From: Chloroflexota bacterium
GTDB lineage: Bacteria > Chloroflexota > Dehalococcoidia > Tepidiformales > Tepidiformaceae
Length of the DNA: 64,000 bases
Reading direction: 5' to 3'
Assembly (NCBI GenBank): GCA_016234445.1
Contig: JACRBT010000007.1
Span: 1-64,000 of the forward strand
Each line of letters starts with the position of its first letter. Position 1 is the first letter of the stretch. A program made the position numbers and the translations under genes. Shown here piece after piece: positions 17,992 to 35,035 of the stretch. The notes under the pieces are model-generated. The model did no database searches, was not told where the DNA came from, and saw only the letters and a list, made by a program, of their open reading frames with translations.

Positions 17992-18732
17992 GTGTCCGCT
18001 GCTGAAGCCCGAGTCAGCCTCCTCGATGACCGCGATGCTGCCATCCGCCAGTACGCCCCCCTCGTCAAGTACGTCGTGGGGCGGCTCGCCATTGGCCTCC
18101 CCGCCATCCTCGACTACGAAGACATCCTCAGCTACGGCACCATCGGCCTCATCGAGGCCCTCGACCGTTTCGACGACAGCAAGGGCGTCAAGTTCGAAAC
18201 CTATGCCATCAGCCGCATCCGGGGGGCGATCATCGACGCCCTTCGCTCCCTTGATCGCCTCCCCCGGTCCGTCCGCCAGAAGGCCCGCCGCCTCGAACAG
18301 GTCACCGTCGCGCTCACCGCAGACCTCGGCCGCGAACCCACCGACGCCGAGCTCGCCGCTGGCATGGGGATGACCCGCGAGGTCTACAACCAGACCCTCA
18401 TCGACTCGAGCTGGGTCACCGTCTCCCTCGACGGCCTCCTCGACCGCGACGAAAACTCCGACGGCGCCGCCGCCACCGAGCTCCCCGCCGACCCCAACGA
18501 AGAAGACTTCACCCGGCGCATGGAGAAGCGCCAGATGCTCGAAGCCCTCACCGGCGCGGTCAAGTCCCTTCCCGAACGCGAATGGCTCATCGTCAGCCTC
18601 TACTACCGCGACGAGATGACGATGAAGGAAATCGCCCAGATCCTCGACATCTCCGAGTCCCGCGTGTGCCAGCTCCACGGCCGCGCCCTCGGCCGCCTGC
18701 GCGCCCGCCTCGCCCGCGACCGGGCCGCGTGA
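17992..18732 (+). CDS. fliA: Flagellar sigma factor, sigma-28 (FliA/WhiG) family
   Basis: A 246-residue sigma factor without region 1.1. Region 2 (YAPLVKYVVGRLAIGLPAIL, then GLIEALDRFD), region 3 (SLDRLPRSVRQKARRLEQ) and region 4 (LPEREWLIVSLYYRDEMTMK) are in order. It should transcribe the late flagellar genes, including the three flagellin promoters in this window that share GCGATAAC. Two FlgM-type anti-sigma genes are nearby. GTG start with GGAGG upstream. Confidence 0.93.
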   Translation: MSAAEARVSLLDDRDAAIRQYAPLVKYVVGRLAIGLPAILDYEDILSYGTIGLIEALDRFDDSKGVKFETYAISRIRGAIIDALRSLDRLPRSVRQKARRLEQVTVALTADLGREPTDAELAAGMGMTREVYNQTLIDSSWVTVSLDGLLDRDENSDGAAATELPADPNEEDFTRRMEKRQMLEALTGAVKSLPEREWLIVSLYYRDEMTMKEIAQILDISESRVCQLHGRALGRLRARLARDRAA

Positions 18733-18743
18733 GGAGCCTCGAC

Positions 18744-19115
18744 ATGACCGACGCAATCGCCCTCCTCGCCATCTCCCAAATCGTCTGCCTCGGCGGAATC
18801 GCCTACCTCTACGTCCAGCTCCAGGCGGTCCGCGGCCAGCTTCCCCGGCTCCGCAGCGCCGCGGCCTCGCGCGTCCAGCGCGCCGTCGCCGAAGATCACA
18901 CCCCGTCCGCGCCTCGTTCCGCCACCGTCCGCCCTGGTTCGCCGGCCGCCCGGACAGCTCCCGCCGCCGCGCCCGCGCCGCGCCCCCTCAACGCCGCCAC
19001 CATCGCTGCCCGCATGGACGAACTCGGCGTCGACGTCGCCGCCCTCGCCCGCCGCACCGGCCGCAGCGAAGAAGAAGTGCGCCTCATGCTCCGCCGCCAG
19101 GGGATGAGTCGATGA
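18744..19115 (+). CDS. Membrane-anchored protein with C-terminal HTH-like segment
   Basis: A 123-residue protein: one N-terminal TM helix (about 4-26), an Ala/Pro/Arg-rich linker, then a helical C-terminus (ARMDELGVDVAALARRTGRS) that looks like a short helix-turn-helix. It lies between the sigma-28 gene and the LPDTG gene and overlaps the latter by ATGA. The family is not recognised; the layout recalls the small DUF proteins often found next to fliA. Confidence 0.6.
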   Translation: MTDAIALLAISQIVCLGGIAYLYVQLQAVRGQLPRLRSAAASRVQRAVAEDHTPSAPRSATVRPGSPAARTAPAAAPAPRPLNAATIAARMDELGVDVAALARRTGRSEEEVRLMLRRQGMSR

Positions 19116-19747
19116 CCCTGCGGGCCGCCCTCCTCCTGCTCGCGCTCGCGCCGTTCCTTGCCTTCGGGGCAGGGGGCCAGCCCGCGCGCGCCAACGGGGT
19201 GCCGCAGCTCGTCAAGCTCACCTACCTCGACGGCGTCTCCAACTTCGGCCCCAAAGACGCGGAGGGCGTCCTCGAATTCAGCTTTGCCGAGGCCTACGCC
19301 CGCGTCGACGTGAAGAACCTTCAGCCCCAGGCCGGCATGGTGTATGAAGGCTGGCTCGTCGCCCCCGATGGCAAGACCTTCCTCGTTGGCCAGATCGCCA
19401 TCGCCGCTTCCGGTATCGGCGGGCTCGACACGAAGCTCAACGGCCTCACCCGCTTCGATTACAACCTCTTCGTCGTCACCGCCCGGGCGAGCACCACCGC
19501 GGCCTCGGCAGCGATGCCCGCCCAGAAGTCCATCGCCGGCCGCTTCACCGTGGTCCCCAATACTTCCGATGGCAACCGCACCGACATCCGCCCGAACCAG
19601 CTGCCCGACACCGGCGAACAGGCGGGCAGGAGCCTTGCCTCGCGCCTCGCCCTCACTGCTGCCGCCACCGCCGGGGCAGCCGCCATCGCCATCGTGACGT
19701 TCCGCGTTACCCGCGGCCGAACCGCAACCGGAGGGAAGGGACGATGA
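19112..19747 (+). CDS. LPDTG-motif surface protein in the flagellar operon
   Basis: A 211-residue secreted protein. A signal peptide (about 1-28) is followed by a beta-rich domain whose central part (YEGWLVAPDGKTFLVGQIA) resembles the extracytoplasmic domain of anti-sigma-K-like proteins. The C-terminus is a canonical sortase signal: LPDTGE at 164-169, a hydrophobic helix at about 179-197, and a basic tail (RVTRGR). It overlaps both neighbours by ATGA, so it is co-translated with rod/hook genes. A sortase gene lies at 32522 in the same locus. Confidence 0.78.
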   Translation: MTLRAALLLLALAPFLAFGAGGQPARANGVPQLVKLTYLDGVSNFGPKDAEGVLEFSFAEAYARVDVKNLQPQAGMVYEGWLVAPDGKTFLVGQIAIAASGIGGLDTKLNGLTRFDYNLFVVTARASTTAASAAMPAQKSIAGRFTVVPNTSDGNRTDIRPNQLPDTGEQAGRSLASRLALTAAATAGAAAIAIVTFRVTRGRTATGGKGR

Positions 19748-20499
19748 TCAAAGGCATCTATTCGGCCTTCAACGCCATGGAGGCGGCCTGGAAATACCAG
19801 GACTCCCTGGCCAACAACATCGCCAACGCCGGCACCGCTGGCTTCAAGCGCGAAATCGGCGCTCAGCAGTCCTTCGCCGACATCCTCCTCTCCCAGCGGA
19901 CGCCGATCCCGGCCCCCTTTGCCGCCCGCGTCGAGGCGATCGTCGGCCAGATCGGCTCCGGCACCTTCCTCGCCGAACTCACCACCGACTTCACCAACGG
20001 CGAGCTCCAGCCCACCAACGGAGAATTCGACTTCGCCCTCGACCAGGGCTTCTTCGCCGCCCAGGACGAACAGGGCCGCGTCTTCTACACCCGTGGCGGC
20101 CGCTTCGGCCGTGACTCCGCCGGCGACCTTGTCACTAGCCGCGGCGACCGCGTCCTCGACGAAAATGGCGCCACCATTAACCTCCCGCCGGGCGCCGTCC
20201 ACGTTGGCCTCGACGGCGTGATCGCGATCGCCGGCCAGGACGTCGCCCGCCTCGGAGTCTTCGACTTCACCCCCAACCAGCTCGTCCGCGCCGGAGAAGC
20301 GCACTTCACCAGCGCCACCCCCGGAACGCTCCTCGACGGCGGCGTCCGCCAGGGCTTCATCGAAGGCTCCAACTCCCAGGTCGGCGAAGAGCTGACCACG
20401 ATGCTCGCCGTCACCCGCACTTTCCAGGCCAACCAGACCGTCCTCGCCCGTCTCGATGCCAGCCTTCAGCAGGCTGCCACCGACATCGGGCAGCTCTAG
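19744..20499 (+). CDS. flgF: Flagellar rod protein, FlgF/FlgG family
   Basis: A 251-residue rod protein. The N-terminal rod signature (SLANNIANAGTAGFKRE) and the C-terminal flg_bbr region (LTTMLAVTRTFQANQTVLA) are both present. It may be FlgF or a second FlgG; the two are paired here as in other Gram-positive-type operons. Overlaps the LPDTG gene by 4 bp. Confidence 0.85.
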   Translation: MIKGIYSAFNAMEAAWKYQDSLANNIANAGTAGFKREIGAQQSFADILLSQRTPIPAPFAARVEAIVGQIGSGTFLAELTTDFTNGELQPTNGEFDFALDQGFFAAQDEQGRVFYTRGGRFGRDSAGDLVTSRGDRVLDENGATINLPPGAVHVGLDGVIAIAGQDVARLGVFDFTPNQLVRAGEAHFTSATPGTLLDGGVRQGFIEGSNSQVGEELTTMLAVTRTFQANQTVLARLDASLQQAATDIGQL

Positions 20500-20508
20500 G
20501 AGTAACCG

Positions 20509-21246
20509 ATGGCTACCGTACTCGGCACTTCCGCCGGCGCCCTCCAGAACCTCCAGATCGTCCTCGACGCCGTCGCCGCGAACATCGCTAACGTCAGCAC
20601 CGCCGGCTACAAGAGGATCGACGCCATGACCGAGGGCGTGCCCCAGCTCGATGCCGCCCAGCCAGCCGGCCGGCTCGCCGTCGCCGAAGTCTCGCTCGAC
20701 ATCTCCCTCGGCGCTGCCCAGGGCGGCGCCAACGCCATCAGCTTCGCCCTCCAGGACGACTCGTTCTTCCAGGTGCGGGACACGGATGGCGGGCTGTCGT
20801 TCACCCGGCTTGGCGCAATGCAGGTCGACGGCGCAGGGAACATATCCACCCTCAGTGGCCGCGTCCTCGAACCCCCGGTCCAGCTCCCCTCGGGCTGGAG
20901 CGCCCCCGGCATCAACCACGCCGGCGAAATCACCGCCACCGACGACGCCGGCAATCGCCAGGTTATCGGCCAGCTCACGCTCGTCAGGTTCGTCAACCCC
21001 CGCGGCCTCTTGGTCCTTGGCGAAGGGATGTACCGCGAGACCGCGAACACTGGCGCCCGGACCACCGGCAACCCCGGCAGCCCCGAATTCGCGGCCCTTG
21101 TCCCCGGCTCCATTGAAGCCTCGAACGTCGACCTCGCGACCGAATTCACCAACCTCATCGCCGCGCAGCGCGCCTACCAGGCCAGCGCCCGCTCTTTCAG
21201 CCTCGGTGACGAAATGCTCAAGACCGCCACCGACCTCAGCCAGTAG
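20509..21246 (+). CDS. flgG: Flagellar rod/hook protein, FlgG family
   Basis: A 245-residue rod protein with N-terminal signature VAANIANVSTAGYKRIDAM and C-terminal signature SNVDLATEFTNLIAAQRAYQ, the FlgE/FlgG family pattern. It follows flgF by 9 nt. The length fits FlgG; the hook protein FlgE proper is not in this window. Confidence 0.88.
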   Translation: MATVLGTSAGALQNLQIVLDAVAANIANVSTAGYKRIDAMTEGVPQLDAAQPAGRLAVAEVSLDISLGAAQGGANAISFALQDDSFFQVRDTDGGLSFTRLGAMQVDGAGNISTLSGRVLEPPVQLPSGWSAPGINHAGEITATDDAGNRQVIGQLTLVRFVNPRGLLVLGEGMYRETANTGARTTGNPGSPEFAALVPGSIEASNVDLATEFTNLIAAQRAYQASARSFSLGDEMLKTATDLSQ

Positions 21247-21257
21247 GAGACGCCACC

Positions 21258-21569
21258 ATGAACCGCATTGACGGCCTCAACCCGCTCAGCACCAGCCGTA
21301 CCCGGGAGAACCGCGAAACCGGCGCTGTCGACGGCGGCGCTGGCCACCGCAGCCAGTCCGCGGAGAAGGCCGCCTCCGGGCTCGACCAGGTCAGCCTCTC
21401 CGGCCGCGGCCGCGGCGTCGCCCGGGCGGCGGCGGCCGTCCTCGCCGCTCCCGATGTCCGGGAAGCAAGGGTCGCCGCCCTCAAGGCCGCCATCGCCGGC
21501 GGCACCTACAACCCCGACCCCGCCGACGTCGCCGCTCGCCTGCTCGCCAGCGGCAGTTTCGGAGACTAA
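21258..21569 (+). CDS. flgM: Anti-sigma-28 factor FlgM (first copy)
   Basis: A 103-residue protein with a disordered N-terminal half and a C-terminal helical region (VREARVAALKAAIAGGTYNP, then DPADVAARLL) matching the sigma-28-binding part of FlgM. It stands directly before flgN-flgK-flgL, the usual place. A second paralogue is at 33211. Confidence 0.88.
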   Translation: MNRIDGLNPLSTSRTRENRETGAVDGGAGHRSQSAEKAASGLDQVSLSGRGRGVARAAAAVLAAPDVREARVAALKAAIAGGTYNPDPADVAARLLASGSFGD

Positions 21570-21575
21570 CGCGCC

Positions 21576-22055
21576 GTGGCTACCGTCTCCTGGCTCGAAT
21601 CCCTCCACACCGTCTTGCTCGAAGAGGAGCGGGAGCTTGCCCTGCTCGTCGCCCTCGCCCTCGAGGAGCAGGAAGCCCTCATCCTTTCCGACGCCGAGGC
21701 CGTGACCGCCGTCAGCACCCGGATGCTCTCCGCTGCCGGCCGAATGGAGGCGATCGAGGCCCGCCGCGAAGCCATCCTCGCCGAGGCCGGGTACGCCGGG
21801 TCCACGCTCACCAACATCCTCCCGGTCGCCGCCGAGTCCGGAATGACCACGCTCGCCGACTCCCGCGACAGGCTCGTCTCCCTCGCCAGCGATCTCCGCG
21901 ACGCCCAGGAGCGGAACGCCCGCCTCATCCTCGGCGCCCTCCGCATCCGCGAACGCTGGGCGAACATGCTCGCCAGCATGGGCGCTCCAACCTACGCCGC
22001 CTCGGGCCGCGCTGCCCCGCGGGATGGCTCCACCTATCTCTCCAAGAGCGCCTAG
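21576..22055 (+). CDS. flgN: FlgN-like flagellar export chaperone
   Basis: A 159-residue all-helical protein between flgM and flgK, the usual position of FlgN, which escorts FlgK and FlgL to the export gate. The start is GTG 21576, 6 nt after flgM. Sequence similarity to FlgN is weak; the call rests largely on size, helical content and position. Confidence 0.75.
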   Translation: MATVSWLESLHTVLLEEERELALLVALALEEQEALILSDAEAVTAVSTRMLSAAGRMEAIEARREAILAEAGYAGSTLTNILPVAAESGMTTLADSRDRLVSLASDLRDAQERNARLILGALRIRERWANMLASMGAPTYAASGRAAPRDGSTYLSKSA

Positions 22056-22066
22056 GAGGCTGGCCC

Positions 22067-23473
22067 ATGGGCCTGTCCGTTGGTCTCGATACCGCAGTCC
22101 AGGCCCTTCGCGCCCACCAGTTGGGCGTCGACATCGCCTCCCATAACATCGCCAACGCCCAGACCCCAGGGTTCTCGCGGCAGCGGGCACTCCTTCGCGC
22201 CCTCAACTACAGCTCCGGCAGCAGTTATGCCAGCGGCGGGCTTCTCGGCCGCGCCGGGAACGGTGTCGACGCCAGCGACATCAACCGCGCCCGCGACACC
22301 TTCCTCGATTTCCAGGCCCGCCAGGCTTTCGCCGGCTACGGCCACCAGCGCGCCCTCACCACCGCCCTCGCCCAGACCGAGGTTGTCTTCAACGACCCCT
22401 CCGACCAGGGCATCAGCCAGCTTCTCGGCCGCTTCTGGGCCTCCTGGCACGACGTCGTCAACGACCCCGAGTCCGCCGCCGCCCGCACCAGCCTGGTTCA
22501 TTCCACCACCACCCTCACCACGCGCGTCCGCCAGGCATCCACCGACCTCACGAACCAGCGCACCAACCTCAACCAGCGCGTCAGCGCCATCGGCGACTCC
22601 ATCAACGGCGCCGCCACCGAAATCGCCGCCCTCAACCTCCAGATCGTGAAGGTCGAAGTCGCAGGCAGCGCGGCCAACGATCTCCGGGATCGCCGCGACT
22701 TCCTCGTGGACCAGCTCTCCAGCCTCGCTGAGGTCAGCTACTCCGAACAGGCCAACGGCTCCCTCGATGTGACCCTCGGCGGCCACGCCCTCGTTTCGGG
22801 CACCACCGTCGACGCCGTCACGGCCGTCCCCGACCTCCTCAATCCAGGCATGAACAAGCTCATCTTCAGCAGCGACAGCGCCGGCGTGACCAGCACCACC
22901 GGGGAACTTCGCGGCGTCCTCGATGCCCGCGATGTCGACCTGCCTGCCCTCCTGGCCAAGGTCGACACCCTCGCCGCCGCCCTCATCACCTCCATCAACG
23001 CCGTCCACAGTGCTGGCTTCGGGCTCGACAACTCCACGGGCCTCCTCTTCTTCACCGGCACAGGCGCCTCCGACATCGCCCTCAACTCCGTCCTGGCCGC
23101 GGCACCCCAGCAGATCGCCGCCGCCTCTGCGCTCGGCAGCCCCGGCGACGGCAGCAACGCCCTCGCCATCGTCGACCTCCAGCTGGCCGCCACGATGTCC
23201 GCCGGCACCCAGACTTTCGACGAGTTCTACGGCAGCATCGTCAGCATCCTCGGCGCCGACGCCGCCCGAGCCCGGGATGCCGCCAGTGCCGCCGACCTCA
23301 TGTCTTCCCACCTCGAAGGCCTCCGCCAGTCCACCTCCGGCGTCAACATCGACGAAGAAGTGACTAACCTCGGCGCCTCCCAGCACGCCTACAACGCGGC
23401 TGCCCGCGTCATCACCGCGGTCGATGAAATGCTCGACCAGCTCATCAACCGCACCGGCATCGTCGGGAGATAG
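22067..23473 (+). CDS. flgK: Flagellar hook-filament junction protein FlgK (HAP1)
   Basis: A 468-residue hook-associated protein. The N-terminus has the axial-protein motif (ISHNIANAQTPGFSRQRALL-type; here ASHNIANAQTPGFSR) and the C-terminus the helical motif (SGVNIDEEVTNLGASQHAYN) typical of FlgK. It starts 11 nt after flgN and is followed by flgL after 2 nt. Confidence 0.94.
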   Translation: MGLSVGLDTAVQALRAHQLGVDIASHNIANAQTPGFSRQRALLRALNYSSGSSYASGGLLGRAGNGVDASDINRARDTFLDFQARQAFAGYGHQRALTTALAQTEVVFNDPSDQGISQLLGRFWASWHDVVNDPESAAARTSLVHSTTTLTTRVRQASTDLTNQRTNLNQRVSAIGDSINGAATEIAALNLQIVKVEVAGSAANDLRDRRDFLVDQLSSLAEVSYSEQANGSLDVTLGGHALVSGTTVDAVTAVPDLLNPGMNKLIFSSDSAGVTSTTGELRGVLDARDVDLPALLAKVDTLAAALITSINAVHSAGFGLDNSTGLLFFTGTGASDIALNSVLAAAPQQIAAASALGSPGDGSNALAIVDLQLAATMSAGTQTFDEFYGSIVSILGADAARARDAASAADLMSSHLEGLRQSTSGVNIDEEVTNLGASQHAYNAAARVITAVDEMLDQLINRTGIVGR

Positions 23474-23475
23474 CG

Positions 23476-24363
23476 ATGAGAGTCAGCGAACAGTCCCGCC
23501 AGACCAACCAGCTCCGCTACCTCCAGACAGCGAGCGAGCGTCTCGACCGCATCCAGCAGCAGCTGGCAACCGGCCGCAAGATCGAGCGCGCCAGCGACGA
23601 TCCCTCCGGCGCCGCCCTCGCCCTCGAACACCGGGCCAGCATCAGCTTCGAAGACCAGATGCGCCGCAACCTCGCCAACGGCACCGCCTTCATGAACATG
23701 ACCGAGACCGCCCTCGAAGGCGTCACCGAGGCCTTCCAGCGCGCCCGCGAGCTCACCGTCCAGGCCTCCAACGACGCCCTTTCCCCAAATGAACGCACCG
23801 CTATCGCCCGGGAGATGGACCAGCTCATCCAGCAGCTCGCCCAGCTCGGCAACACCAACTTCGGTGGCGCCTACATCTTTGGCGGCCACCAGACACGCAC
23901 CCCGGCCTTCAGTGTGACCGGGAACCCGCCCACCGCCGTCACCTACCAGGGCGACACGGGACAGAGGATGCATCGCATCTCCCGCGAAGACGCCGTTGCT
24001 GTCAACATCCCCGGTTCCACTGCCTTTGGCACGGTCTTTGCGGACCTGATCGCCCTCCGCGACAACCTCGACGCGGGCGCCCCCGGTGCGGCCATTGCCC
24101 CCAGCATCTCCGTGATCGACGACGCCCTCGACCGCGTCCTCCAGCAGCGGGCAGAGATCGGCGCCCGGGTCAATCGCTTCGCCTCGTCTCTCAGCCGCTC
24201 CGAGGACACCGACACCTCGCTCCAGCAGCTTCGTTCGGACATCGAAGAGATCGACCTCCCGGCGACGATCGTCAACCTCACGGCCCAGGAGGCCTCCATG
24301 CAGGCCGCTCTCGGCGCCATTGGCCGGACCTCGCGGCTCACCCTGCTCGACTTCCTCCGGTAG
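23476..24363 (+). CDS. flgL: Flagellar hook-filament junction protein FlgL (HAP3)
   Basis: A 295-residue flagellin-like protein. The N-terminal D0/D1 helix (RLDRIQQQLATGRKIERASD) and the C-terminal helix are conserved, and the middle (NFGGAYIFGGHQT) is the FlgL signature. It is the last gene of the long operon before the flagellin cluster. Confidence 0.92.
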   Translation: MRVSEQSRQTNQLRYLQTASERLDRIQQQLATGRKIERASDDPSGAALALEHRASISFEDQMRRNLANGTAFMNMTETALEGVTEAFQRARELTVQASNDALSPNERTAIAREMDQLIQQLAQLGNTNFGGAYIFGGHQTRTPAFSVTGNPPTAVTYQGDTGQRMHRISREDAVAVNIPGSTAFGTVFADLIALRDNLDAGAPGAAIAPSISVIDDALDRVLQQRAEIGARVNRFASSLSRSEDTDTSLQQLRSDIEEIDLPATIVNLTAQEASMQAALGAIGRTSRLTLLDFLR

Positions 24364-24434
24364 TCCGGTCACCAGGAGGGAAACCCCCTCCTTGTTCACC
24401 AGATGTCCCCCGTTTGGATGCCTGTTCACCCCCC

Positions 24435-24460
24435 TAAGGGATTCGCGCCACAGCGATAAC
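24435..24460 (+). promoter_or_regulatory. Sigma-28 promoter of flagellin 1
   Basis: TAAG (24435-24438) and GCGATAAC (24453-24460) with a 14-nt spacer resemble the sigma-28 consensus (TAAA / GCCGATAA). The GCGATAAC octamer is repeated in the same place before flagellins 2 and 3. Confidence 0.75.
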
Positions 24461-24552
24461 CATGGGGAGCGACCGCCACAAATTCCAACGCGTGTGGTGG
24501 TCCATCGCCCCGGCCTCCGGGGCAGGGGTAAGGAAGGACATCCGGTAACACC

Positions 24553-25749
24553 ATGGGCATGCAGATTGCAACGAACGCTGCGGCCATCAACGCGCAGCGC
24601 AACCTCGCCAACACGGGCGTCAAGATGGGCAAGGTCCTGGAGAAGCTCTCCAGCGGCTACCGCATCAACCGCGCCTCCGACGACGCCGCCGGTCTCGGCA
24701 TTAGCGAAAAGATGCGGGCACAGGTCCGCGGCAACCAGCAGGCTGTCCGCAACGCCCAGGACGGCATCTCGATGCTGCAGACCGGTGAAGGCGCACTGGA
24801 CGAAGTTCACGCGATCCTCCAGCGCATGCGCGAACTCTCGGTCCAGGCCGCCAACGGCACCTACGCCGACAGCTCGGCCGAGCGCACCTCCATCGGCCAG
24901 GAAATCAACCAGCTGAAGCAGGAGATCGACCGCATCGCCGGGGCGACCAAGTTCAACGGCCAGAACCTCCTGACCGGCACCCTCACCGGCACCCTCGGCG
25001 GCGCCACCGCCACCGACCTGATCGTCGGCGACCAGCTGACCACGACGGCCGTTGCAGCGGTGACCAAGGTGGAAGTGGCCGGGGCGAAGGCCCAGACGTA
25101 CACGTTCACCTCGGGCGGGGCCGGCAGCCTCACGCTGACGGGGGCCGACGGCAGCGCCCAGACCCTTTCGGGCATCACCAGCCTCGCGGCGAACGAGACC
25201 CGGACCCTGAACTTCTCCAACGTCGGTGTCTCGATCACGGTCCAGGCCAACGCCTCGGGCAAGGTCGTCGCCGACATGATCACCGACCTCACCGCGGCCG
25301 CGAACGACACCATCGTCGTCACCGGCTCGGGTGCAGCTTCGCTCCAGGTCGGCGCCAACAGCGGCGACTCCCTGAGCATCAGCTTCGCCGACATGCAGGC
25401 CGCCCAGCTCGGCGCTGGTTCCGACCTCGCAACGCTGATCACCGACGACCTCAACGTCAGCACCCAGGCCAAGGCGAGCACCCTCATCTCGGAGCTGGAC
25501 GGCGCCATCGCCGACGTCAACGCCCAGCGCGGTACCCTCGGTGCCGCCCAGAACCGCCTTGAGCACAGCATCCGCAGCCTTGGGGTCTCGGTCGAAAACC
25601 TCAGCGCCGCTGAAAGCCGCATCCGCGACGCCGATGTCGCCGAGCTCTCGAGCGCGATGGTCAGCCAGCAGATCCTGCAGCAGGCCGGCATCTCCGTCCT
25701 CGCCCAGGCGAACCAGGCGCCGCAGTCGGCCCTCTCCCTCCTGCGGTAA
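24553..25749 (+). CDS. fliC1: Flagellin 1
   Basis: A 398-residue flagellin with conserved N-terminal (MQIATNAAAINAQRNLANTG) and C-terminal (AESRIRDADVAELSSAMVSQ) D0/D1 helices. The central domain of about 190 residues is shared almost unchanged with the two paralogues downstream. It has its own sigma-28 promoter and terminator. The start ATG-GGC-ATG parallels those of the other two copies. Confidence 0.95.
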   Translation: MGMQIATNAAAINAQRNLANTGVKMGKVLEKLSSGYRINRASDDAAGLGISEKMRAQVRGNQQAVRNAQDGISMLQTGEGALDEVHAILQRMRELSVQAANGTYADSSAERTSIGQEINQLKQEIDRIAGATKFNGQNLLTGTLTGTLGGATATDLIVGDQLTTTAVAAVTKVEVAGAKAQTYTFTSGGAGSLTLTGADGSAQTLSGITSLAANETRTLNFSNVGVSITVQANASGKVVADMITDLTAAANDTIVVTGSGAASLQVGANSGDSLSISFADMQAAQLGAGSDLATLITDDLNVSTQAKASTLISELDGAIADVNAQRGTLGAAQNRLEHSIRSLGVSVENLSAAESRIRDADVAELSSAMVSQQILQQAGISVLAQANQAPQSALSLLR

Positions 25750-25777
25750 CCACCACCCTCAACGCCCCTCCAGTAAA

Positions 25778-25810
25778 CAGGGCCCCCTCCAGCGAGGGGG
25801 CCCTGTTTTG
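25778..25810 (+). terminator. Terminator of flagellin 1
   Basis: A perfect 12-bp stem CAGGGCCCCCTC / GAGGGGGCCCTG with loop CAGC is followed by TTTT. Confidence 0.92.
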
Positions 25811-25907
25811 TGCTCCCCGGGTTCGGCCTGTGAAGACTCCCCGCGAGGGAACCCCCTCGCCTCCGCCCGCGCTCTCCCCGCTTTTCGCCCGATCTCCTCG
25901 CTGGCCC

Positions 25908-25935
25908 TCAGGTTTCCCGTCCACGCGGCGATAAC
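25908..25935 (+). promoter_or_regulatory. Sigma-28 promoter of flagellin 2
   Basis: GCGATAAC at 25928-25935 matches the -10 of the other flagellin promoters; the -35 (TCAG, 25908-25911) is weak. Confidence 0.7.
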
Positions 25936-26021
25936 TGAACTGTAACCCGGTGTCCACCAAACACACACCTCATGGTGGACCGGAGAGTGAAAGGCTCCAG
26001 CCGGGCGAAAGGGAAGACCTC

Positions 26022-27221
26022 GTGAGCATGCAAATCGTCACCAACGTCGCTGCCATCAACGCCCAGCGCAACCTCGCGAACACCGGCGTCAAGATGGGCA
26101 AGGTCCTCGAGAAGCTCTCCAGCGGCTATCGCATCAACCGCGCCGCCGACGACGCCGCCGGCCTCGCCATCAGCGAAAAGCTCCGCGCCCAGGTCCGCGG
26201 CAACCAGCAGGCCGTCCGCAACGCCCAGGACGGCATCTCCATGCTGCAGACCGGTGAAGGCGCCCTGGACGAACTCCACAGCATCCTCCAGCGGATGCGC
26301 GAACTCTCCGTCCAGGCCGCCAACGGCACCTACGCTGACGGTTCGGCCGAGCGCACCTCGATCGGCCAGGAAATCAACCAGCTGAAGCAGGAGATTGACC
26401 GCATCGCCGGGGCGACCAAGTTCAACGGCCAGAACCTCCTGACGGGTACCCTCACCGGCACCCTCGGCGGCGCCACCGCCAGCGACCTCATCGTCGGCGA
26501 CCAGCTGACCACCACGGCCGTGGCTGCCGTCACCGAAGTCAACGTCGCCGGGGCGAAGGCTCAAACCTACACCTTCACTTCGGGCGGGGCCGGCAGTCTC
26601 ACCCTGACGGGGACGGACGGCAGCGCCCAGACCCTCTCGGGCATCACCAGCCTCGTCGCCAACGAGACCCGGACCCTGAACTTCTCCAACCTCGGCGTCT
26701 CGGTCACGGTCCAGGCCAACGCCTCGGGCAAGGTCGTCGCCGACCTCATCACCGACCTCACCGCGGCCGCGGACGACACGATCGTCGTCACCGGCTCGGG
26801 CGCGGCCCAGCTCCAGGTTGGCGCCAACAGCGGCGACACGATGAGCATCAGCTTCGTCGACGTCCAGTCGGGCCAACTCGGCGCCGGCTCGAACCTCTTC
26901 ACCCTCATCACCGACGACCTCAACGTCGACACCCAGGCCAAGGCGAGCGTCCTGATCTCGGAGCTCGACGGCGCCATCCAGGACATCAACGCCCTCCGCG
27001 GCGCCCTCGGCGCTTCCCAGAACCGCCTCGAACACGTCGTCAAGAGCATTGGCGTCGCCGTCGAAAACCTGAGCGCCAGCGAAAGCCGCATCCGCGACGC
27101 CGACATCGCCGAGCTCTCCAGCCAGATGGTGAGCCAGCAGATTCTCCAGCAGGCCGGCGTGTCCGTCCTCTCCCAGGCGAACCAGGCGCCGCAAGCCGCA
27201 CTCGCCCTCCTCCAGCGGTAA
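26022..27221 (+). CDS. fliC2: Flagellin 2
   Basis: A 399-residue flagellin, nearly identical to copies 1 and 3 in the terminal helices and very similar in the middle. Differences from copies 1 and 3 include an Arg-for-Gln near the end and ELHSILQRM in place of EVHAILQRM. The start is taken as GTG 26022 (VSMQIVTN) to match the M-x-M start of the others; ATG 26028 is the alternative. Confidence 0.94.
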   Translation: MSMQIVTNVAAINAQRNLANTGVKMGKVLEKLSSGYRINRAADDAAGLAISEKLRAQVRGNQQAVRNAQDGISMLQTGEGALDELHSILQRMRELSVQAANGTYADGSAERTSIGQEINQLKQEIDRIAGATKFNGQNLLTGTLTGTLGGATASDLIVGDQLTTTAVAAVTEVNVAGAKAQTYTFTSGGAGSLTLTGTDGSAQTLSGITSLVANETRTLNFSNLGVSVTVQANASGKVVADLITDLTAAADDTIVVTGSGAAQLQVGANSGDTMSISFVDVQSGQLGAGSNLFTLITDDLNVDTQAKASVLISELDGAIQDINALRGALGASQNRLEHVVKSIGVAVENLSASESRIRDADIAELSSQMVSQQILQQAGVSVLSQANQAPQAALALLQR

Positions 27222-27242
27222 CAGGGACGAGGTCACCCCCTG

Positions 27243-27275
27243 AGGGCCCGGCCAATTTGGCCGGGCCCTTCCCTT
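27243..27275 (+). terminator. Terminator of flagellin 2
   Basis: Stem GGGCCCGGCC / GGCCGGGCCC (27244-27268) with loop AATTT, followed by TTCCCTTT. Confidence 0.88.
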
Positions 27276-27378
27276 TGCGCGACGGATCTCGCCGTTCTGG
27301 CGCCTTGCACTCAGGGGATCCCACTACGGCGACCCCTATCTTTCCCCTAATTCCGGCCGTTTTCCCACCTTCCCTGCC

Positions 27379-27404
27379 AAGATCCCCGAGAACGTGGCGA
27401 TAAC
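27379..27404 (+). promoter_or_regulatory. Sigma-28 promoter of flagellin 3
   Basis: GCGATAAC at 27397-27404 is preceded 15-16 nt upstream by a CAAG/CCAAG -35-like element, as in the flagellin 1 promoter. Confidence 0.72.
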
Positions 27405-27503
27405 TCTCCTGTACCGAACGTCCACCCAAATCACACCCGTGGTGGACAGCCAGGAGTGGAACCCCTTCCTCCCGGCAGGCACCCGAAAGGATCCCGGACA
27501 GTT

Positions 27504-28703
27504 ATGGGAATGCAAATTGCAACGAACATCGCTGCGATCAATGCGCAGCGGAACCTCGCCAACACGGGCGTCAAGATGGGGAAGGTCCTGGAGAAGCTCT
27601 CCAGCGGCTACCGCATCAACCGCGCCGCCGACGACGCCGCCGGCCTCGCCATCAGCGAAAAGATGCGGGCACAGGTCCGCGGCAACCAGCAGGCCGTCCG
27701 CAACGCCCAGGACGGCATCTCCATGCTGCAGACTGGTGAAGGCGCCCTGGACGAAGTTCACGGCATCCTCCAGCGGATGCGCGAACTCTCGGTCCAGGCT
27801 GCCAACGGCACCTACGCCGACAGCTCGGCCGAGCGCACCTCGATCGGCCAGGAAATCAACCAGCTGAAGCAGGAGATTGACCGCATCGCCGGGGCGACCA
27901 AGTTCAACGGCCAGAACCTCCTGACGGGCACCCTCACCGGCACCCTCGGCGGGGCTACCGCCACCGACCTGATCGTCGGCGACCAGCTGACCACGACGGC
28001 CGTTGCCGCCGTGACCAAGGTGGAGGTGGCCGGGGCCAAGGCCCAGACCTACACCTTCACCTCGGGCGGCGCCGGCAGCCTCACCCTGACGGGGACGGAC
28101 GGCAGCGCCCAGACGCTGTCCGGGATCACCAGCCTCGCGGCGAACGAGACCCGGACCCTCAACTTCTCGAACCTCGGCGTCTCGATCACGGTCCAGGCCA
28201 ACGCCTCGGGCAAGGTCGTGGCCGACATGATCACCGACCTCACCGCCGCCGCCGATGACACCATCGTCGTTAGCGGCTCGGGCGCGGCTTCGCTCCAGGT
28301 CGGCGCCAACAGCGGCGACTCCCTGAGCATCAGCTTCGTCAACATGCAGACCGGCCAGCTCGGCGCCGGCTCGAACCTCTTCACCCTGATCACCGACGAC
28401 CTCAACGTCGACACCCAGGCCAAGGCGAGCACCCTCATCTCGGAGCTCGACGGCGCCATTCAGGATGTCAACGCCCAGCGCGGCACTCTCGGCGCTTCCC
28501 AAAACCGCCTCGAGCACGTCATCCGCAGCCTCGGGGTCGCCGTCGAGAACCTCAGCGCCGCTGAGAGCCGCATCCGTGATGCCGACGTCGCCGACCTCTC
28601 CAGCTCCATGGTGAGCCAGCAGATCCTGCAGCAGGCCGGTATCTCGGTTCTCTCGCAGGCCAACCAGGCGCCGCAGGCCGCTCTCGCCCTCCTCCGGTCG
28701 TAG
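27504..28703 (+). CDS. fliC3: Flagellin 3
   Basis: A 399-residue flagellin closest to copy 1: both share the same central block (TATDLIVGDQLTTTAVAAV) and the EVH variant of the D1 helix. Starts with ATG-GGA-ATG, ribosome-binding site AAAGGAT. Ends with its own terminator. Confidence 0.95.
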   Translation: MGMQIATNIAAINAQRNLANTGVKMGKVLEKLSSGYRINRAADDAAGLAISEKMRAQVRGNQQAVRNAQDGISMLQTGEGALDEVHGILQRMRELSVQAANGTYADSSAERTSIGQEINQLKQEIDRIAGATKFNGQNLLTGTLTGTLGGATATDLIVGDQLTTTAVAAVTKVEVAGAKAQTYTFTSGGAGSLTLTGTDGSAQTLSGITSLAANETRTLNFSNLGVSITVQANASGKVVADMITDLTAAADDTIVVSGSGAASLQVGANSGDSLSISFVNMQTGQLGAGSNLFTLITDDLNVDTQAKASTLISELDGAIQDVNAQRGTLGASQNRLEHVIRSLGVAVENLSAAESRIRDADVADLSSSMVSQQILQQAGISVLSQANQAPQAALALLRS

Positions 28704-28729
28704 TTCCTGGCTATTGTCGTCGCCTCATG

Positions 28730-28762
28730 AGGGGCCCGGTCACCAGGCCGGGCCCCTTCCTC
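28730..28762 (+). terminator. Terminator of flagellin 3
   Basis: Stem AGGGGCCCGG / CCGGGCCCCT (28730-28757) with an 8-nt loop, followed by TCCTCATT. Confidence 0.85.
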
Positions 28763-28837
28763 ATTCCCGCCCCTGGCACTCAAGAATAGGCGCCTCCCGA
28801 TCGATGATTAGGTAGGTCTCCCACAGGCAGGTGCACC

Positions 28838-29158
28838 ATGTCGGCGCTTAAGCTGGCTTCGGTCGAACCCATTGCCGTCGCCCCGCGGGAAACGCGATGG
28901 GACCACGGGGGCAACGCGCGACAGCAATTCCGCGGCCGGCAGCGCTCGCCTGCCCGCCAGCGAATGCTTCGCGTCGCCGTCCCCGGCCACGACCCGGAGA
29001 CGTGTGCTATCGCCATGGAACTCGATGCCTCCGGCGAACTTCGCCACCTCATCATCACCGACGCCGCCAGCGGTTCTGTCCTCGCGACCCTCACCCCCGC
29101 CGAGGTTCTCGCCATCGGCGCCGGCGACTCAGGCATCCTCTTCGAGCGAAAGGGCTGA
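28838..29158 (+). CDS. flaG: FlaG-like protein upstream of fliD
   Basis: A 106-residue protein with a basic, disordered N-terminal half and a C-terminal domain (IAMELDASGELRHLIITDAA, then GSVLATLTPAEVLAI) that fits the FlaG pattern of a strand, turn and ETG-like segment followed by a helix. It directly precedes fliD (3-nt gap), the standard FlaG position. FlaG affects filament length in other bacteria. Confidence 0.65.
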   Translation: MSALKLASVEPIAVAPRETRWDHGGNARQQFRGRQRSPARQRMLRVAVPGHDPETCAIAMELDASGELRHLIITDAASGSVLATLTPAEVLAIGAGDSGILFERKG

Positions 29159-29161
29159 CCC

Positions 29162-31519
29162 GTGGCCGACCCCGTGCGCGTCAGCGGCTTCTTCTCCACC
29201 TTCGATACTGAAGCCGTCATCAAGCAGCTCACCGAAGTCCGGCAGATTCGCATCCGCCGCATGGACATCGAACAGGCGCGCGCCGACGTCCGCGGTCAGA
29301 CCATCGCCGACCTCAACACCAGGCTGGCGGCGCTCCTCAGCAAGGCCAAGGCTCTCTCCTCGATAACCTCCGTCTCCGGGAAGTCCACCACCGTCGAAGG
29401 CAGCGGTGTCGCTGCCGCGGCCGGGCCGAGTGCGGCGACCGGCACCTTCACCGTCGACGTCACGAAACTCGCCACCGGCACGACCGCCACCGGGAGCGCC
29501 ATCACCGCCGCCCTCGACTCGACCTCTCCCATGAGCCGTTCGAACTTCGCCACCGGGGTCACCGATGGCAAGTTCACGATCAAGACTGCGACCGGCGGCT
29601 CCGCACAGTTCACCGTAGGCCCCACCGCGGCCAATTCTGCCGCCCTGCTCAACGCTTCGAATTTCTCCACCGCCGTCACCAGCGGCACTTTCACCCTCGC
29701 AACCACCGGGGGCGGCTCGGCCGTCATCAACGTCGACATAACCACCCAGTCCCTCGACGACGTCATCACGGCCATCAACGGCAGCGGTATTGGCGTCACA
29801 GCTTCCCTCACGAACGACGCCAACGGCCGCGCGACCATCCTCACCCTCACCTCCACGAACGGCGACATAACCGTGGGCGGCGGCAGCGACACGTCGAATT
29901 TCCTTACGGCTACCAACCTTTCGGCTGCCACGGGCACCACGACCCGCGCCAGCACCGCCGCCTTCACAACCCAGGATTCCCTCGCCCAGGTCATCACCGC
30001 CATCAACGCCAGCGGCATCGGTGTGACCGCAACCATCACCAACGACGCCAACGGCCGTGCCAACATCGTTTCGCTCGCCTCCGCCAGCGGCGCCATCACC
30101 CTCGGCACCGGCGCCGACACCTCCAACTTCCTCTCCGCGACAAACCTCCTCGCGTCCCCCGGCACCACCAGCCGCCAGAGCACCCAGGCCATCGCCAGGA
30201 TGAACGGCAGCACGAAGATGGCCGACGGCAGCTGGTTTGGCGGCGCGCCCGCTTCCGGGGCCCACACCTTCACAGTCAACGGTGTCTCCATCGCCTACGA
30301 CACCGCCGCCGATTCCCTCAACGACGTCATCGCACGCATCAACGGCAGCACCGCCGGCGTCACCGCCCGCTACGACACCGCGACCGACACCATCAAGCTC
30401 CAGCAGTCGAAGACCGGCTCCCTCGCCGTCACCCTCGCCGACGACGGGTCCGGCGGCAACTTCCTCTCGAAGACCGGTCTCCTCACCGCCACCCAGGCCC
30501 TCGGTGCCAGCGCCGAATACAGCATCGACGGCGGCGCCACTCAATACGCCTCCTCCAACTCCGTCCTCGCGGTTGCCGGCGTCACCCTCACCTTTTCGAC
30601 CCTCACCACGGTGGGTACCCCCGTCAAGGTCACCGTCAACCAGGACACCTCCAGCGCCGTCACGGCCATCAAGGCGTTCGTCACCGAGTTCAACGCCGCC
30701 ATCACCGCCATCGACGAAGCCACGAAGACCGACGCCAAGGACGCCAGCAGCGCCGGCGCTCTCAGCGGCGACGCCAGTGTCCGGGCCCTCAAGTCATCCC
30801 TCCGCGGCCTCATCAACGGCCCCGGCCTCGGCCTCACCGGCAAGTACACCAATCTCGGCGAAGTCGGCCTTTCCTTCGGCGCCGTTGGCAGCGCCGTCGG
30901 CACCACGAACACCCTCCAGTTCGACGAATCGAAGTTCAAGGCTGCCCTCGCCGCCGACCCGACCTCCGTCCAGTCGCTCCTCAGCGCCTACACGCTCAGC
31001 GCCACGCTCGCCGGCGGCGGCACGGGCTCGCTCGCCAGCATGACCGGCTCCTACACGGGCACGAAGACCGGTTCCTACGCGATCACCGACGACGGATCGG
31101 GTCACCTCAGCGCCGTCTTCAGCCCCGCCGACGGCGGCTCCCAGACCACAACCACCGCAACCGTCACCGCCGGGGGAAGCAATACCACCCTCATCCCCGG
31201 GATGACCCTGACCATCGGCGCCCTCCAGGCCGGCAACCACAGCATCGCGGTCTCGGCGACGAAGAGCAGCGTCTTCCGCCAGGTCCAGCAATACCTCGAA
31301 GGCCAGGCCGGCGCGGGCGGCATCCTCACCAAGCGCCAGGACACCTACTCCGCCGTATCGAAGGACATCGCCGCCCGGAAGGTCGTCATCCAGGACCGCA
31401 TCGACAAGGAGATGGCCATCCTTCGCCGCAAGTTCGTGGCCATGGAACAGGCGCAGGCCCGGGCCCAGTCGGCGATGACCGCCCTCCAGCAGGCCATGGT
31501 CAAGGTGAGCAACCAGTAG
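29162..31519 (+). CDS. fliD: Flagellar filament cap protein FliD
   Basis: A 785-residue cap protein (HAP2), longer than the common 450-600 residues. The N-terminus (VRVSGFFSTFDTEAVIKQLT) and C-terminal coiled coil (VIQDRIDKEMAILRRKFVAM) are typical. The extra length comes from repeats of a hook_IN-like unit at about residues 197-265, 275-345 and 385-430 (for example SLDDVITAINGSGIGVTASL and SLAQVITAINASGIGVTATI). GTG start at 29162. Confidence 0.92.
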   Translation: MADPVRVSGFFSTFDTEAVIKQLTEVRQIRIRRMDIEQARADVRGQTIADLNTRLAALLSKAKALSSITSVSGKSTTVEGSGVAAAAGPSAATGTFTVDVTKLATGTTATGSAITAALDSTSPMSRSNFATGVTDGKFTIKTATGGSAQFTVGPTAANSAALLNASNFSTAVTSGTFTLATTGGGSAVINVDITTQSLDDVITAINGSGIGVTASLTNDANGRATILTLTSTNGDITVGGGSDTSNFLTATNLSAATGTTTRASTAAFTTQDSLAQVITAINASGIGVTATITNDANGRANIVSLASASGAITLGTGADTSNFLSATNLLASPGTTSRQSTQAIARMNGSTKMADGSWFGGAPASGAHTFTVNGVSIAYDTAADSLNDVIARINGSTAGVTARYDTATDTIKLQQSKTGSLAVTLADDGSGGNFLSKTGLLTATQALGASAEYSIDGGATQYASSNSVLAVAGVTLTFSTLTTVGTPVKVTVNQDTSSAVTAIKAFVTEFNAAITAIDEATKTDAKDASSAGALSGDASVRALKSSLRGLINGPGLGLTGKYTNLGEVGLSFGAVGSAVGTTNTLQFDESKFKAALAADPTSVQSLLSAYTLSATLAGGGTGSLASMTGSYTGTKTGSYAITDDGSGHLSAVFSPADGGSQTTTTATVTAGGSNTTLIPGMTLTIGALQAGNHSIAVSATKSSVFRQVQQYLEGQAGAGGILTKRQDTYSAVSKDIAARKVVIQDRIDKEMAILRRKFVAMEQAQARAQSAMTALQQAMVKVSNQ

Positions 31520-31620
31520 CCCGTCCGGAGAAATAGGCGAATTCCCCGATACGGCCCCCCGCCAGGATTTCGATGCTCGCTATGAAGCTCGTGCTTCCGA
31601 AGGAGACGCAGGTTCGAGGA

Positions 31621-32022
31621 ATGAGCAGGAACCCCTACGACGCTTACCACACCGTCCGGACGACGACCGCCGATCCAATCTCCATCACCACCATGCTCTT
31701 CGATGGCTGCCTCAAGGCCATCCGCAAGGCCCGGCTCTTCGAAGCCGACGGCAACCGCAAGAGCTTCCTCGACGAAACGGACCGCGCCCAGCTGATCGTC
31801 GGCGAACTCCTCTGCACCCTCGACATGGAACAGGGCGAAATCCCGAAGCACCTCAGCGCCATCTACTCCTACTGCCTCCGCTGCCTCATCGAAGCCACCC
31901 TCGGCGACATGCCCAAGCTGGACGAAGTCGAAAAGCACATCGCCCGCATCGCCGACGCATGGAAGATCGCCACCGCCGAGCTCAAGGCGAAAGGCGCCGT
32001 CCCCTCCCGGGTTGCAGCCTGA
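31621..32022 (+). CDS. fliS: Flagellin export chaperone FliS
   Basis: A 133-residue helical chaperone. The start MSRNPYDAYHTVRTTTADPI fits FliS (NPY..Y motif), and the body has the four-helix pattern. FliS caps flagellin C-termini before export. ATG 31621 follows a Shine-Dalgarno-like GAGGA; an upstream ATG at 31573 would add 16 residues and is less typical. Confidence 0.9.
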   Translation: MSRNPYDAYHTVRTTTADPISITTMLFDGCLKAIRKARLFEADGNRKSFLDETDRAQLIVGELLCTLDMEQGEIPKHLSAIYSYCLRCLIEATLGDMPKLDEVEKHIARIADAWKIATAELKAKGAVPSRVAA

Positions 32023-32024
32023 CC

Positions 32025-32351
32025 ATGCACCAGTTCATCGTCGCCGCGCTCGAAGAGACCCACCGGCAGCTTGCTTCCCTCCGGGCCGGCGACGACACGG
32101 GCTTCGTCGAACACGCGCCCACCCACGAGGCTGCCTGCCTCCTCGTCGCCGGCCTCCCCGGGGCGGTGCTGGCAGGCGAAGCCGCGGCCCTCGCCTCCCT
32201 GGTCGAAGCAAACGCCGGCCTCGATGACCTGATCGCGGCCCACCAGGCTGCCGCCGCCGGCCGCATGACCGCCCTCGCCGTCAGCCGCCACGCCGCCTCA
32301 GCCTACGGCGCCGCCCTCCCCGGGTCGGCCTACCCCACGCGCGAAGCCTGA
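32025..32351 (+). CDS. FliT-like small helical protein
   Basis: A 108-residue all-alpha protein rich in Ala, 2 nt after fliS. Position and size suggest FliT (the FliD chaperone), but the sequence is too diverged to assign on motifs. The distal part lacks a recognised domain. Confidence 0.55.
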   Translation: MHQFIVAALEETHRQLASLRAGDDTGFVEHAPTHEAACLLVAGLPGAVLAGEAAALASLVEANAGLDDLIAAHQAAAAGRMTALAVSRHAASAYGAALPGSAYPTREA

Positions 32352-32521
32352 CTCGCCACTTCCCGTCACCCCGGGACACGCCCCTGTCACCTGTTCGCTC
32401 TCCAATCCCCACCTCGGGGCCCGGTCTCCGGGAGTCAAGTTTCCCCGGCTGGTGACGACTCTTAGGGGGAGCGGCGACGCCCGGACATCTCCGGCCGGCG
32501 AATCCCCGCTGGAGCAGCACA

Positions 32522-33154
32522 TTGGTATCCTCCCGACGAAAAGGCGGCTGGTTCTCCCCTTCGAGCCTTGTCGCTGCCGTCCTCGTCGCGGCCGCCGGCG
32601 GGATCGCCTGGTACGAGACCGGCACTCCCGGTCCCTCCAATCGGCCTGGCGCGACCGCGGCTACCCTTGCCGTGCCCCCCGAAACCAGTTCGGCCACCGC
32701 TTCCGATCCGGCAGCCCGCCCCCCAGCCGGGAGCCTCCCCACCCGCGTCGTCCTCGAATCCGTGGGCATCGACGCCCCCATCACCGGGGTCGGCGCAGTC
32801 GAGGCCGGCGGCAAACTCACCTGGGAAACCGCCTGGCGCGCCGCCGGCCACCACATCGACTCCGCCCGCCCCGGCCAGCCCGGCAACATGGTCCTCACCG
32901 GCCACGTCTCCGTCGCCGACCGCGGCAACATCCCCGTCTTCGCTTCCCTCGGCAAGGTTGCGCCCGGCGACACCGTCAAGGTCTTCTCCGGCGACCAGGT
33001 CTTCACTTATCGGATCACGAAGGTCTCCGTCGTTTCTCCGGCGGAGACCAGGGTTCTCCGTTCGAGCCCCGCGGCCACCGTCACCCTCATCACCTGCACC
33101 TCCGACCTCAAGAAGCGGCTTGTCGTTGTCGGTACCCTGGTTCAAGGAGCCTGA
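32522..33154 (+). CDS. Sortase, class D/E/F-like transpeptidase
   Basis: A 210-residue membrane-anchored sortase with an N-terminal TM helix (about 11-28) and a Pro/Ala/Thr-rich linker. The catalytic triad is present: His128 in VLTGHVS, Cys192 in LITCTSD and Arg199 in KKRLVV. The GNIPVFASLGKVAPGD segment is the usual sortase core. TTG start (32522) with GGAG upstream. It lies inside the flagellar locus, and an LPDTG protein is encoded at 19112, so they may be substrate and enzyme; that pairing is inference. Confidence 0.85.
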   Translation: MVSSRRKGGWFSPSSLVAAVLVAAAGGIAWYETGTPGPSNRPGATAATLAVPPETSSATASDPAARPPAGSLPTRVVLESVGIDAPITGVGAVEAGGKLTWETAWRAAGHHIDSARPGQPGNMVLTGHVSVADRGNIPVFASLGKVAPGDTVKVFSGDQVFTYRITKVSVVSPAETRVLRSSPAATVTLITCTSDLKKRLVVVGTLVQGA

Positions 33155-33210: not shown

Positions 33211-33492
33211 ATGCCTGAGCTCAGGAAGCCGTCCGGCGTCACCTCCACCGGCGCGGTCGTCTACGACATCTCCGCCGCCCGGCGCCGCGTGGCCGCCAGG
33301 TCCGCCGCCGCCTCCGATCGCTCCGGCGTTAGCGAGGCCGGCCGCGAACTCTCCCGCGCCCTGCTTGCGGCCGAAGAGTCCCCAGAATTGCGCGCCGAGA
33401 AGATCCGCGCCCTCCGCGCCCAGATCGCCAACGGCAGCTACCGGCCCGACCCCCGCGACGTTGCCCGGAGCATGCTCGAACGAGGATTCTGA
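33211..33492 (+). CDS. Second FlgM-like anti-sigma factor
   Basis: A 93-residue protein whose C-terminal region (RAEKIRALRAQIANGSYRPD, then PRDVARSMLERG) parallels the FlgM at 21258 (ARVAALKAAIAGGTYNPDPA). Both share the PDPxDVA turn that binds sigma-28. The N-terminal half is disordered. It has its own promoter and ribosome-binding site (GGAGGGGGG), so it may be regulated separately from the first copy. Confidence 0.8.
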   Translation: MPELRKPSGVTSTGAVVYDISAARRRVAARSAAASDRSGVSEAGRELSRALLAAEESPELRAEKIRALRAQIANGSYRPDPRDVARSMLERGF

Positions 33493-33543
33493 GCACTCTC
33501 CATTCCTTTCCCGAAACCCTTGCGCGATCCCGGCGCCGCTGAG

Positions 33544-34438: not shown

Positions 34439-35035
34439 ATGAACACGCGATTCACAGTGGTATCGGTCGGAGCGGCGGTTGCGCTCCTCGCCCTGGCCGG
34501 GGGCACGCTCGTACTCGCCCAGTCGAGCGAAAAAAGCGACGCAGTTTTCGGCTGCGTCGGCGGCGACAGCCTGCTCCGGGTGACCGGCCCGGGCGTCGCC
34601 TGCCGGAAGAACGAGACGCCCATCTCCTGGAACATTCAAGGCCCGCCCGGAGCCGACGGTCCCGCGGGCCCCGCCGGCGCGGACGGCCAGCCGGGTCCCG
34701 CCGGCCCACAAGGCGACGTCGGCCCCCAGGGTGACGCCGGCCCCGCCGGCGCTCCGGGCATGAGCGGTCTGGAGGTCGTGAGGACCACCTCGGCCAACGG
34801 GTCCGACACCTATCGCACCATCGGCGCCTTCTGCCCGTCGGGTAAGAACGCCGTCGGCGGTGGCGCCTTCCTCTCGCCGTCGAACACGGTGCCGGCCCTT
34901 GCCATCCAGGGCACCTACCCCGTGCTTTCAGCCGGCCGCTCGCTCGGGTGGACCGCCATCGCCGCCGAAACCGCGCCCTACGACGGCAGCTGGACCCTCA
35001 CCGCCTACGCGATCTGCGCCACCGTGGCTCCATAG
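34439..35035 (+). CDS. Secreted collagen-like repeat protein
   Basis: A 198-residue protein with an N-terminal signal peptide (about 1-28), a cysteine-bearing segment (CVGG), then a run of Gly-X-Y triplets at about residues 64-102 (GPPGADGPAGPAGADG and following). The C-terminal domain (about 105-198) is beta-rich with paired cysteines. Such bacterial collagen-like proteins form triple helices at the cell surface. It is not part of an obvious operon. Confidence 0.8.
   Translation: MNTRFTVVSVGAAVALLALAGGTLVLAQSSEKSDAVFGCVGGDSLLRVTGPGVACRKNETPISWNIQGPPGADGPAGPAGADGQPGPAGPQGDVGPQGDAGPAGAPGMSGLEVVRTTSANGSDTYRTIGAFCPSGKNAVGGGAFLSPSNTVPALAIQGTYPVLSAGRSLGWTAIAAETAPYDGSWTLTAYAICATVAP

Follow-up and report, generated by a model that had tools for sequence, protein, structure and literature searches.

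Organization of the locus

The DNA analysed, hereafter the window, is a stretch of 64,000 nucleotides (64 kb) from contig JACRBT010000007.1 of the assembly GCA_016234445.1, a Chloroflexota bacterium of the family Tepidiformaceae. Among its flagellar genes are one that encodes a protein with a C-terminal LPDTG sorting signal (19112-19747) and one that encodes a sortase (32522-33154), which are probably a dedicated pair of the Chloroflexota flagellar system through which a flagellum-associated protein becomes attached to the wall at or near the flagellum. These two genes, the flh, fli and flg genes and fliT- and flgM-like ORFs given below with coordinates, the small ORF after fliA and the sigma-28-like element are on the forward strand. 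The LPDTG protein is 211 amino acids long and comprises a signal peptide, a beta-sandwich (residues 29-147), the LPDTG motif (164-168), a transmembrane helix (175-205) and a basic tail, an architecture that, the beta-sandwich aside, the original prediction had described and that was found again on this open reading frame (ORF). The two ATGA overlaps claimed for the gene are present, one at its start ('cgATGAcc'), where the stop of the preceding gene lies at 19115, and one at its end ('acgATGAtc'), where flgF starts at 19744. The sigma-28 gene, said to be close by, is fliA (17992-18732; TIGR02479 E 6e-73, above cut-off), two genes upstream, and the next two genes downstream encode rod proteins, flgF (19744-20499; best curated model flgF TIGR02490, below cut-off, with the FlgEFG subfamily above cut-off) and flgG (20509-21246; TIGR02488 and TIGR03506).

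The sortase gene has a TTG start and follows fliD (29162-31519) and fliS (31573-32022; PF02561 E 4e-25), a fliD-fliS-sortase order that is conserved in relatives. It was predicted to lie between a fliT-like gene and a second flgM, and this placement was correct, while the two neighbours are identified by their position and by profiles built locally. The fliT-like ORF (32025-32351) has no Pfam match and is named from its position, an annotated fliT being found at the equivalent place in Thermomicrobium roseum; the second FlgM-like ORF (33212-33493) has no Pfam match of its own, and a flgM profile matches at the equivalent place in relatives.

Sorting signal and fold of the LPDTG protein

The ORF at 19112-19747 is the single one in the window that combines LPxTG with a hydrophobic stretch and a basic tail. 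A chance motif was ruled out, with no such ORF in 50 codon-shuffled windows and the motif invariant in relatives; the LPxTG residues are retained in 21/21 aligned orthologues from the window's family, and the mature N-terminus A-N-G-x-P, which in the window protein is near ANGVPQ after the signal peptide, is likewise invariant across these 21. The protein has the complete predicted sorting-signal architecture of a wall-anchored protein, and its attachment to peptidoglycan is predicted. It shares the signal peptide and the complete C-terminal sorting signal with LPxTG cell-wall-anchored surface proteins in general, but unlike the usual members of this group its gene overlaps flgF in a flagellar operon and its distribution is flagellum-restricted.

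The predicted model of the protein (mean predicted local distance difference test score, pLDDT, 82.7) consists of the beta-sandwich, a low-confidence linker holding LPDTG and a terminal helix. The nearest folds are the cores of apo Cu,Zn superoxide dismutases (SOD; 6flh, VIA-align Z 11.2, 2.5 Å, 104 residues), whose Greek-key beta-barrel core is shared by the window protein. The SOD metal site is lacking, since the protein has zero histidines and so none of the histidine metal ligands, and identity as a SOD enzyme was ruled out for this reason. A ring-protein fold was sought with Foldseek and VIA-align, which returned SOD and immunoglobulin-like sandwiches only, and the FlgI P-ring family PF02119 is not matched.

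The sole Pfam match of the window protein is a weak one to the RskA_C domain (PF10099), at 24.5 bits against a cut-off of 29.4, and 14 of the 21 LPxTG-protein members match this domain at E<=0.01. These matches, together with a gene position one gene away from fliA, favour a sensor or regulator of sigma-28, in which an RskA-type extracytoplasmic domain would report the state of the wall or flagellum. Such a role is highly improbable, as the window protein falls under the Pfam cut-off, its inside part is a short basic tail with no cytoplasmic anti-sigma domain, LPxTG processing would take away the membrane helix, and FlgM, the usual anti-sigma factor, is present. Membership of the RskA anti-sigma factors themselves was ruled out by the missing cytoplasmic domain and by the signal peptide at the start of the protein.

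The flagellar sortase

The product of 32522-33154, originally predicted to be a sortase with a full His128-Cys192-Arg199 triad, proved to be one: it matches PF04203 (E 8e-23, 80.9 bits against a cut-off of 26.6), TIGR01076 (49.7 against 39.35) and sortases in the PDB, and all 18 orthologues compared keep H128, C192 and R199. The fold, the His-Cys-Arg triad, a TLxTC motif, an N-terminal membrane anchor formed by a transmembrane helix and an outside catalytic domain are shared with the sortases of peptidase family C60 (PF04203), and in the predicted model (pLDDT 81) a helix at the N-terminus is accompanied by a catalytic beta-domain. The enzyme is a sortase-family member by these matches and a predicted LPxTG transpeptidase. 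Unlike known C60 sortases, it is encoded in a fliD-fliS cluster with a sigma-28-like element upstream and has no assignment to classes C to F, the models of which were all below their cut-offs (the best, class F, at 58.3 versus 166 bits).

The sigma-28-like element (32435-32461; TCAAG...GACGACTC) lies 87 bases before the sortase start and is a degenerate copy of a family motif, TCAAGA-N-GCCGACACT (TCAAGA-N-GCCGACA(C/G)T), that resembles sigma-28 promoters and that most of 17 relatives have upstream of their sortase gene, at positions varying from -62 to -106. With a flagellin-derived profile the motif of the relatives gives a mean z of 1.5, versus about 0 for most non-promoter controls; the window copy by itself is weak (z 0.2 with the same profile) and takes its support from the family motif only.

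Five sortases are encoded in the window's genome, the fliS-linked one and four others, and within about 16 kb around each of these four there are no flagellar genes or LPxTG ORFs. In a sortase tree the fliS-linked enzymes cluster (7 changes versus 26.6 with shuffled labels), and the four other sortases of the window's genome fall in a distant part. A housekeeping sortase present by accident was rejected, because the sortase follows fliS even in genomes that have this cluster at another place and because the four others are distant in the tree.

Conservation of the LPxTG gene with the flagellum

In a survey of 37 genomes of the same family, the window's own included, all 21 that have flgF have the LPxTG gene immediately upstream of it, the 16 that lack flgF lack the LPxTG gene too, and both states occur within one genus (G018 with flgF and the LPxTG gene, G005 without). 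All 18 family loci that were read have the order fliA, small ORF, LPxTG gene, flgF, and the contigs, as far as they extend, show the longer order flhA-flhF-pilZ-orf-fliA-small ORF-LPxTG-flgF-flgG-flgM-flgN-flgK-flgL. The post-fliS sortase is in the same region as the LPxTG cluster in G004, G013 and G017, and also in G058 from another family; in other relatives fliC-fliD-fliS-sortase-flgM forms a separate region of the genome. Named relatives that carry the LPxTG gene are Dehalococcoidia metagenome-assembled genomes (MAGs), a Tepidiforma MAG and Tepidiforma flava YIM 72310. In the record of the last (G032; L108, L027, L031) both flgF and the LPxTG gene are broken up into different reading frames, likely through sequencing errors, and the strain is reported to be motile.

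Profile searches for the LPxTG protein and for flgF were extended to a sample of 400 Chloroflexota genomes, 45 of which are marked by the flgF profile. Strong homologues of the LPxTG protein number 30, with 29 of them in flgF-positive genomes, and a 31st (G366), missed at first, was recovered with a local profile. Outside the window's family 25 of 26 homologues adjoin fliA and/or flgF/G and retain LPxTG, at least 10 further families have the gene in the interval from fliA to flgF/G, and its stop overlaps the flgF start by 4 nucleotides in 31/47 loci. The exception (G154, L186:6132-6560) has LPSTA in place of LPxTG, no flgF match and no flagellar neighbours, and the decayed motif of this orphan is what a lost flagellum would lead one to expect. 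The link to flagellar genes, which had been set as a check in related genomes, is conserved across Chloroflexota families, to a degree well above chance, and gone where the flagellum is gone; like a flagellar component, the LPxTG gene is kept in the flagellar operon and is absent without a flagellum.

These distributions bear on the main rival explanation, in which the protein would be a wall-anchored surface adhesin, a sensor or an S-layer contact that is co-expressed with motility and is not a flagellar part. Surface display is the role of most sortase substrates, the domain of the protein is a generic beta-sandwich, and anchoring to the wall would not by itself direct a protein to the basal body. 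Throughout the phylum the gene nevertheless keeps a single place in the operon, where it overlaps flgF, and it is lost together with flgF, and the small uniform size of its product and the lack of repeats are unlike typical adhesins, so that we consider this explanation unlikely.

Both genes are found at the two equivalent positions among the flagellar genes of the megaplasmid of T. roseum DSM 5159. TRD_RS09470 (LPQTG), annotated as 'hypothetical protein', is preceded by FliA and a small ORF and followed by the first rod gene. TRD_RS13845, annotated as 'sortase', follows fliD-fliS-fliT in a separate cluster about 173 kb away. The latter (L263:15864-16532) has a lipobox-like N-terminus, LLGVSC, and may be lipid-anchored. 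The T. roseum genome paper reports that P- and L-rings are absent and that flagellar attachment 'remains ambiguous', and its main text makes no mention of a sortase (PMC2615216). Cultured Tepidiforma are described as motile by flagella and monoderm, with a peptidoglycan layer of 20-30 nm, an S-layer and no FlgH or FlgI, in a paper whose main text likewise makes no mention of sortases (PMC10284905); a substrate wall for the sortase is thus reported in close relatives.

Pairing of the sortase with the LPxTG gene

A sortase directly after fliS was found in 11 families (f1, f3, f8, f23, f52, f69, f71, f83, f91, f95 and f98), all of them LPxTG-positive, and it persists there in families where the fliD-fliS(-fliT) cluster is far from flgF. 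Among the sortases read from the seven flagellated LPxTG-negative families, most of which have sortases, no post-fliS sortase was found (those read include one of the two in f4). Counted by family, the fliS-linked sortase is thus present in 11/14 LPxTG-positive versus 0/7 LPxTG-negative cases, with f85 left out of the count for a contig end.

The three LPxTG-positive families in which no fliS-linked sortase was found (f79, f80 and f5) and the presence of five sortases in the window's genome would fit anchoring of the LPxTG protein by one of the other sortases, with the fliS-linked enzyme acting on different substrates. This is improbable, given that no second LPxTG ORF was found in the 64 kb window or in the flagellar loci of the family, and that among the surveyed families the fliS-linked sortase was found only alongside the LPxTG gene.

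A second flagellum-linked theme of LPxTG protein and sortase is associated with flgE. In family f83 a beta-helix LPxTG protein of about 865-899 amino acids and its own sortase follow flgE (L187:16457-19051, L188:4780-7476, L208:4576-7257). Families f88, f80, f76 and f56 likewise have sortases near flgE, with an LPNTG ORF nearby in f76 and f88 (loci L249, L248, L243 and L222-L225 were listed with this theme).

Other genes of the locus

The upstream part of the conserved cluster includes flhA (13714-15828), with orthologues in the same order in 19/20 loci of relatives. Directly after fliA, the ORF at 18744-19115 encodes a small protein with an N-terminal membrane segment and a helix-turn-helix-like C terminus, which has sub-threshold Pfam matches only and is conserved within the window's family. 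It is SwrB-like by position, since SwrB occupies the equivalent place in Bacillus, and a small ORF of this type is retained in several flagellated families without the LPxTG gene. Downstream of flgG are flgM, for the anti-sigma-28 factor (21258-21569; PF04316 E 1e-17), flgK and flgL (22067-24363), in an order conserved in relatives, and three highly similar flagellin genes in tandem (24553-28703). Just past the flagellar genes, 34439-35035 encodes a collagen-like G-P-A repeat protein with a signal peptide (PF01391 E 9e-9).

Proposed mechanism and role

The observed gene structure, motif conservation, synteny and co-inheritance point to the dedicated pair proposed above; that this sortase acts on the LPxTG protein, with peptidoglycan as the end point and a site and role at the basal body, is what we infer. 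The LPxTG protein would be produced together with the distal rod protein FlgF from one operon with a stop/start overlap, would be secreted via Sec and, through its C-terminal helix, would stay attached to the membrane. The sortase, produced with the late filament genes fliD-fliS, would then cut LPxTG and join the protein to peptidoglycan, leaving a small beta-sandwich protein covalently on the wall at or near the flagellum. If the sigma-28-like element is real, the substrate would be produced at the rod stage and the sortase afterwards, at the filament stage, and such timing would let the wall link form once the hook is complete.

The role of the anchored protein would most likely be to stabilize or line the path by which the rod or hook crosses the thick wall, in the manner of a collar, bushing or wall guide. 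Tight translational coupling of the gene to flgF, which is compatible with a rod role, and the thickness of the wall make a possible collar or bushing at the rod the specific reading that comes most naturally; a wall-anchored bushing or sleeve for the rod had been the original suggestion. The absence of P-ring and L-ring genes had been put forward in the same sense, and neither FlgI nor FlgH was found in the window's genome. As an argument for a bushing this absence is weak, because FlgI (PF02119) is missing from all 400 Chloroflexota genomes of the sample, the window's included, and so also from flagellated families without the LPxTG gene.

Several observations weigh against a dedicated flagellar pair with such a role. 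Seven flagellated families (f4, f49, f56, f63, f76, f78 and f88) are without the LPxTG gene, so flagella can exist, and can cross the wall, without it, and as their flagella in the same phylum are P-ring-less, a bushing is not obligatory either. The pairing is not strict, since in f79, f80 and f5 another sortase must serve. The FliA+FlgF tree needs only about 4 changes per trait, which limits the independent evidence for the gene correlation, and a test of independent pairs had too few pairs. The basal-body location of the LPxTG protein, moreover, is one that we infer from sequence.

The LPxTG protein may have a role in wall passage analogous to that of the FlgI P-ring and the FlgH L-ring of diderm flagella, and it shares with them Sec secretion and a gene beside rod genes. 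It differs from both in that no similarity of sequence or fold was found and in its predicted covalent wall anchor. A covalent wall collar that is the counterpart of the P-ring in thick monoderm walls, with sigma-28 turning on the sortase only after the hook so that the collar is locked round a finished rod, is a speculative extension that we hold to be doubtful.

Significance

The original prediction had supposed that a role as rod bushing or sleeve was undescribed for sortase substrates, and no description of a sortase or of a sortase substrate as a flagellar component was found in open-licence papers (sortase/basal body, LPXTG/flagella and Chloroflexota/sortase). The sortase and the LPxTG protein are each of a known kind; what is new to us is that the two are joined to the flagellum as a dedicated set across the phylum. 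Little is understood of how a rod crosses a thick monoderm wall, and rotates in it, when there is no P-ring, and a conserved, predicted wall-anchored protein translated with a rod protein, together with a sortase of the same regulon, provides named genes that can be tested in cultivable, motile Tepidiforma. If the proposed pairing is true, sortases would gain a role in the surroundings of a rotary motor, beyond pili or adhesins.

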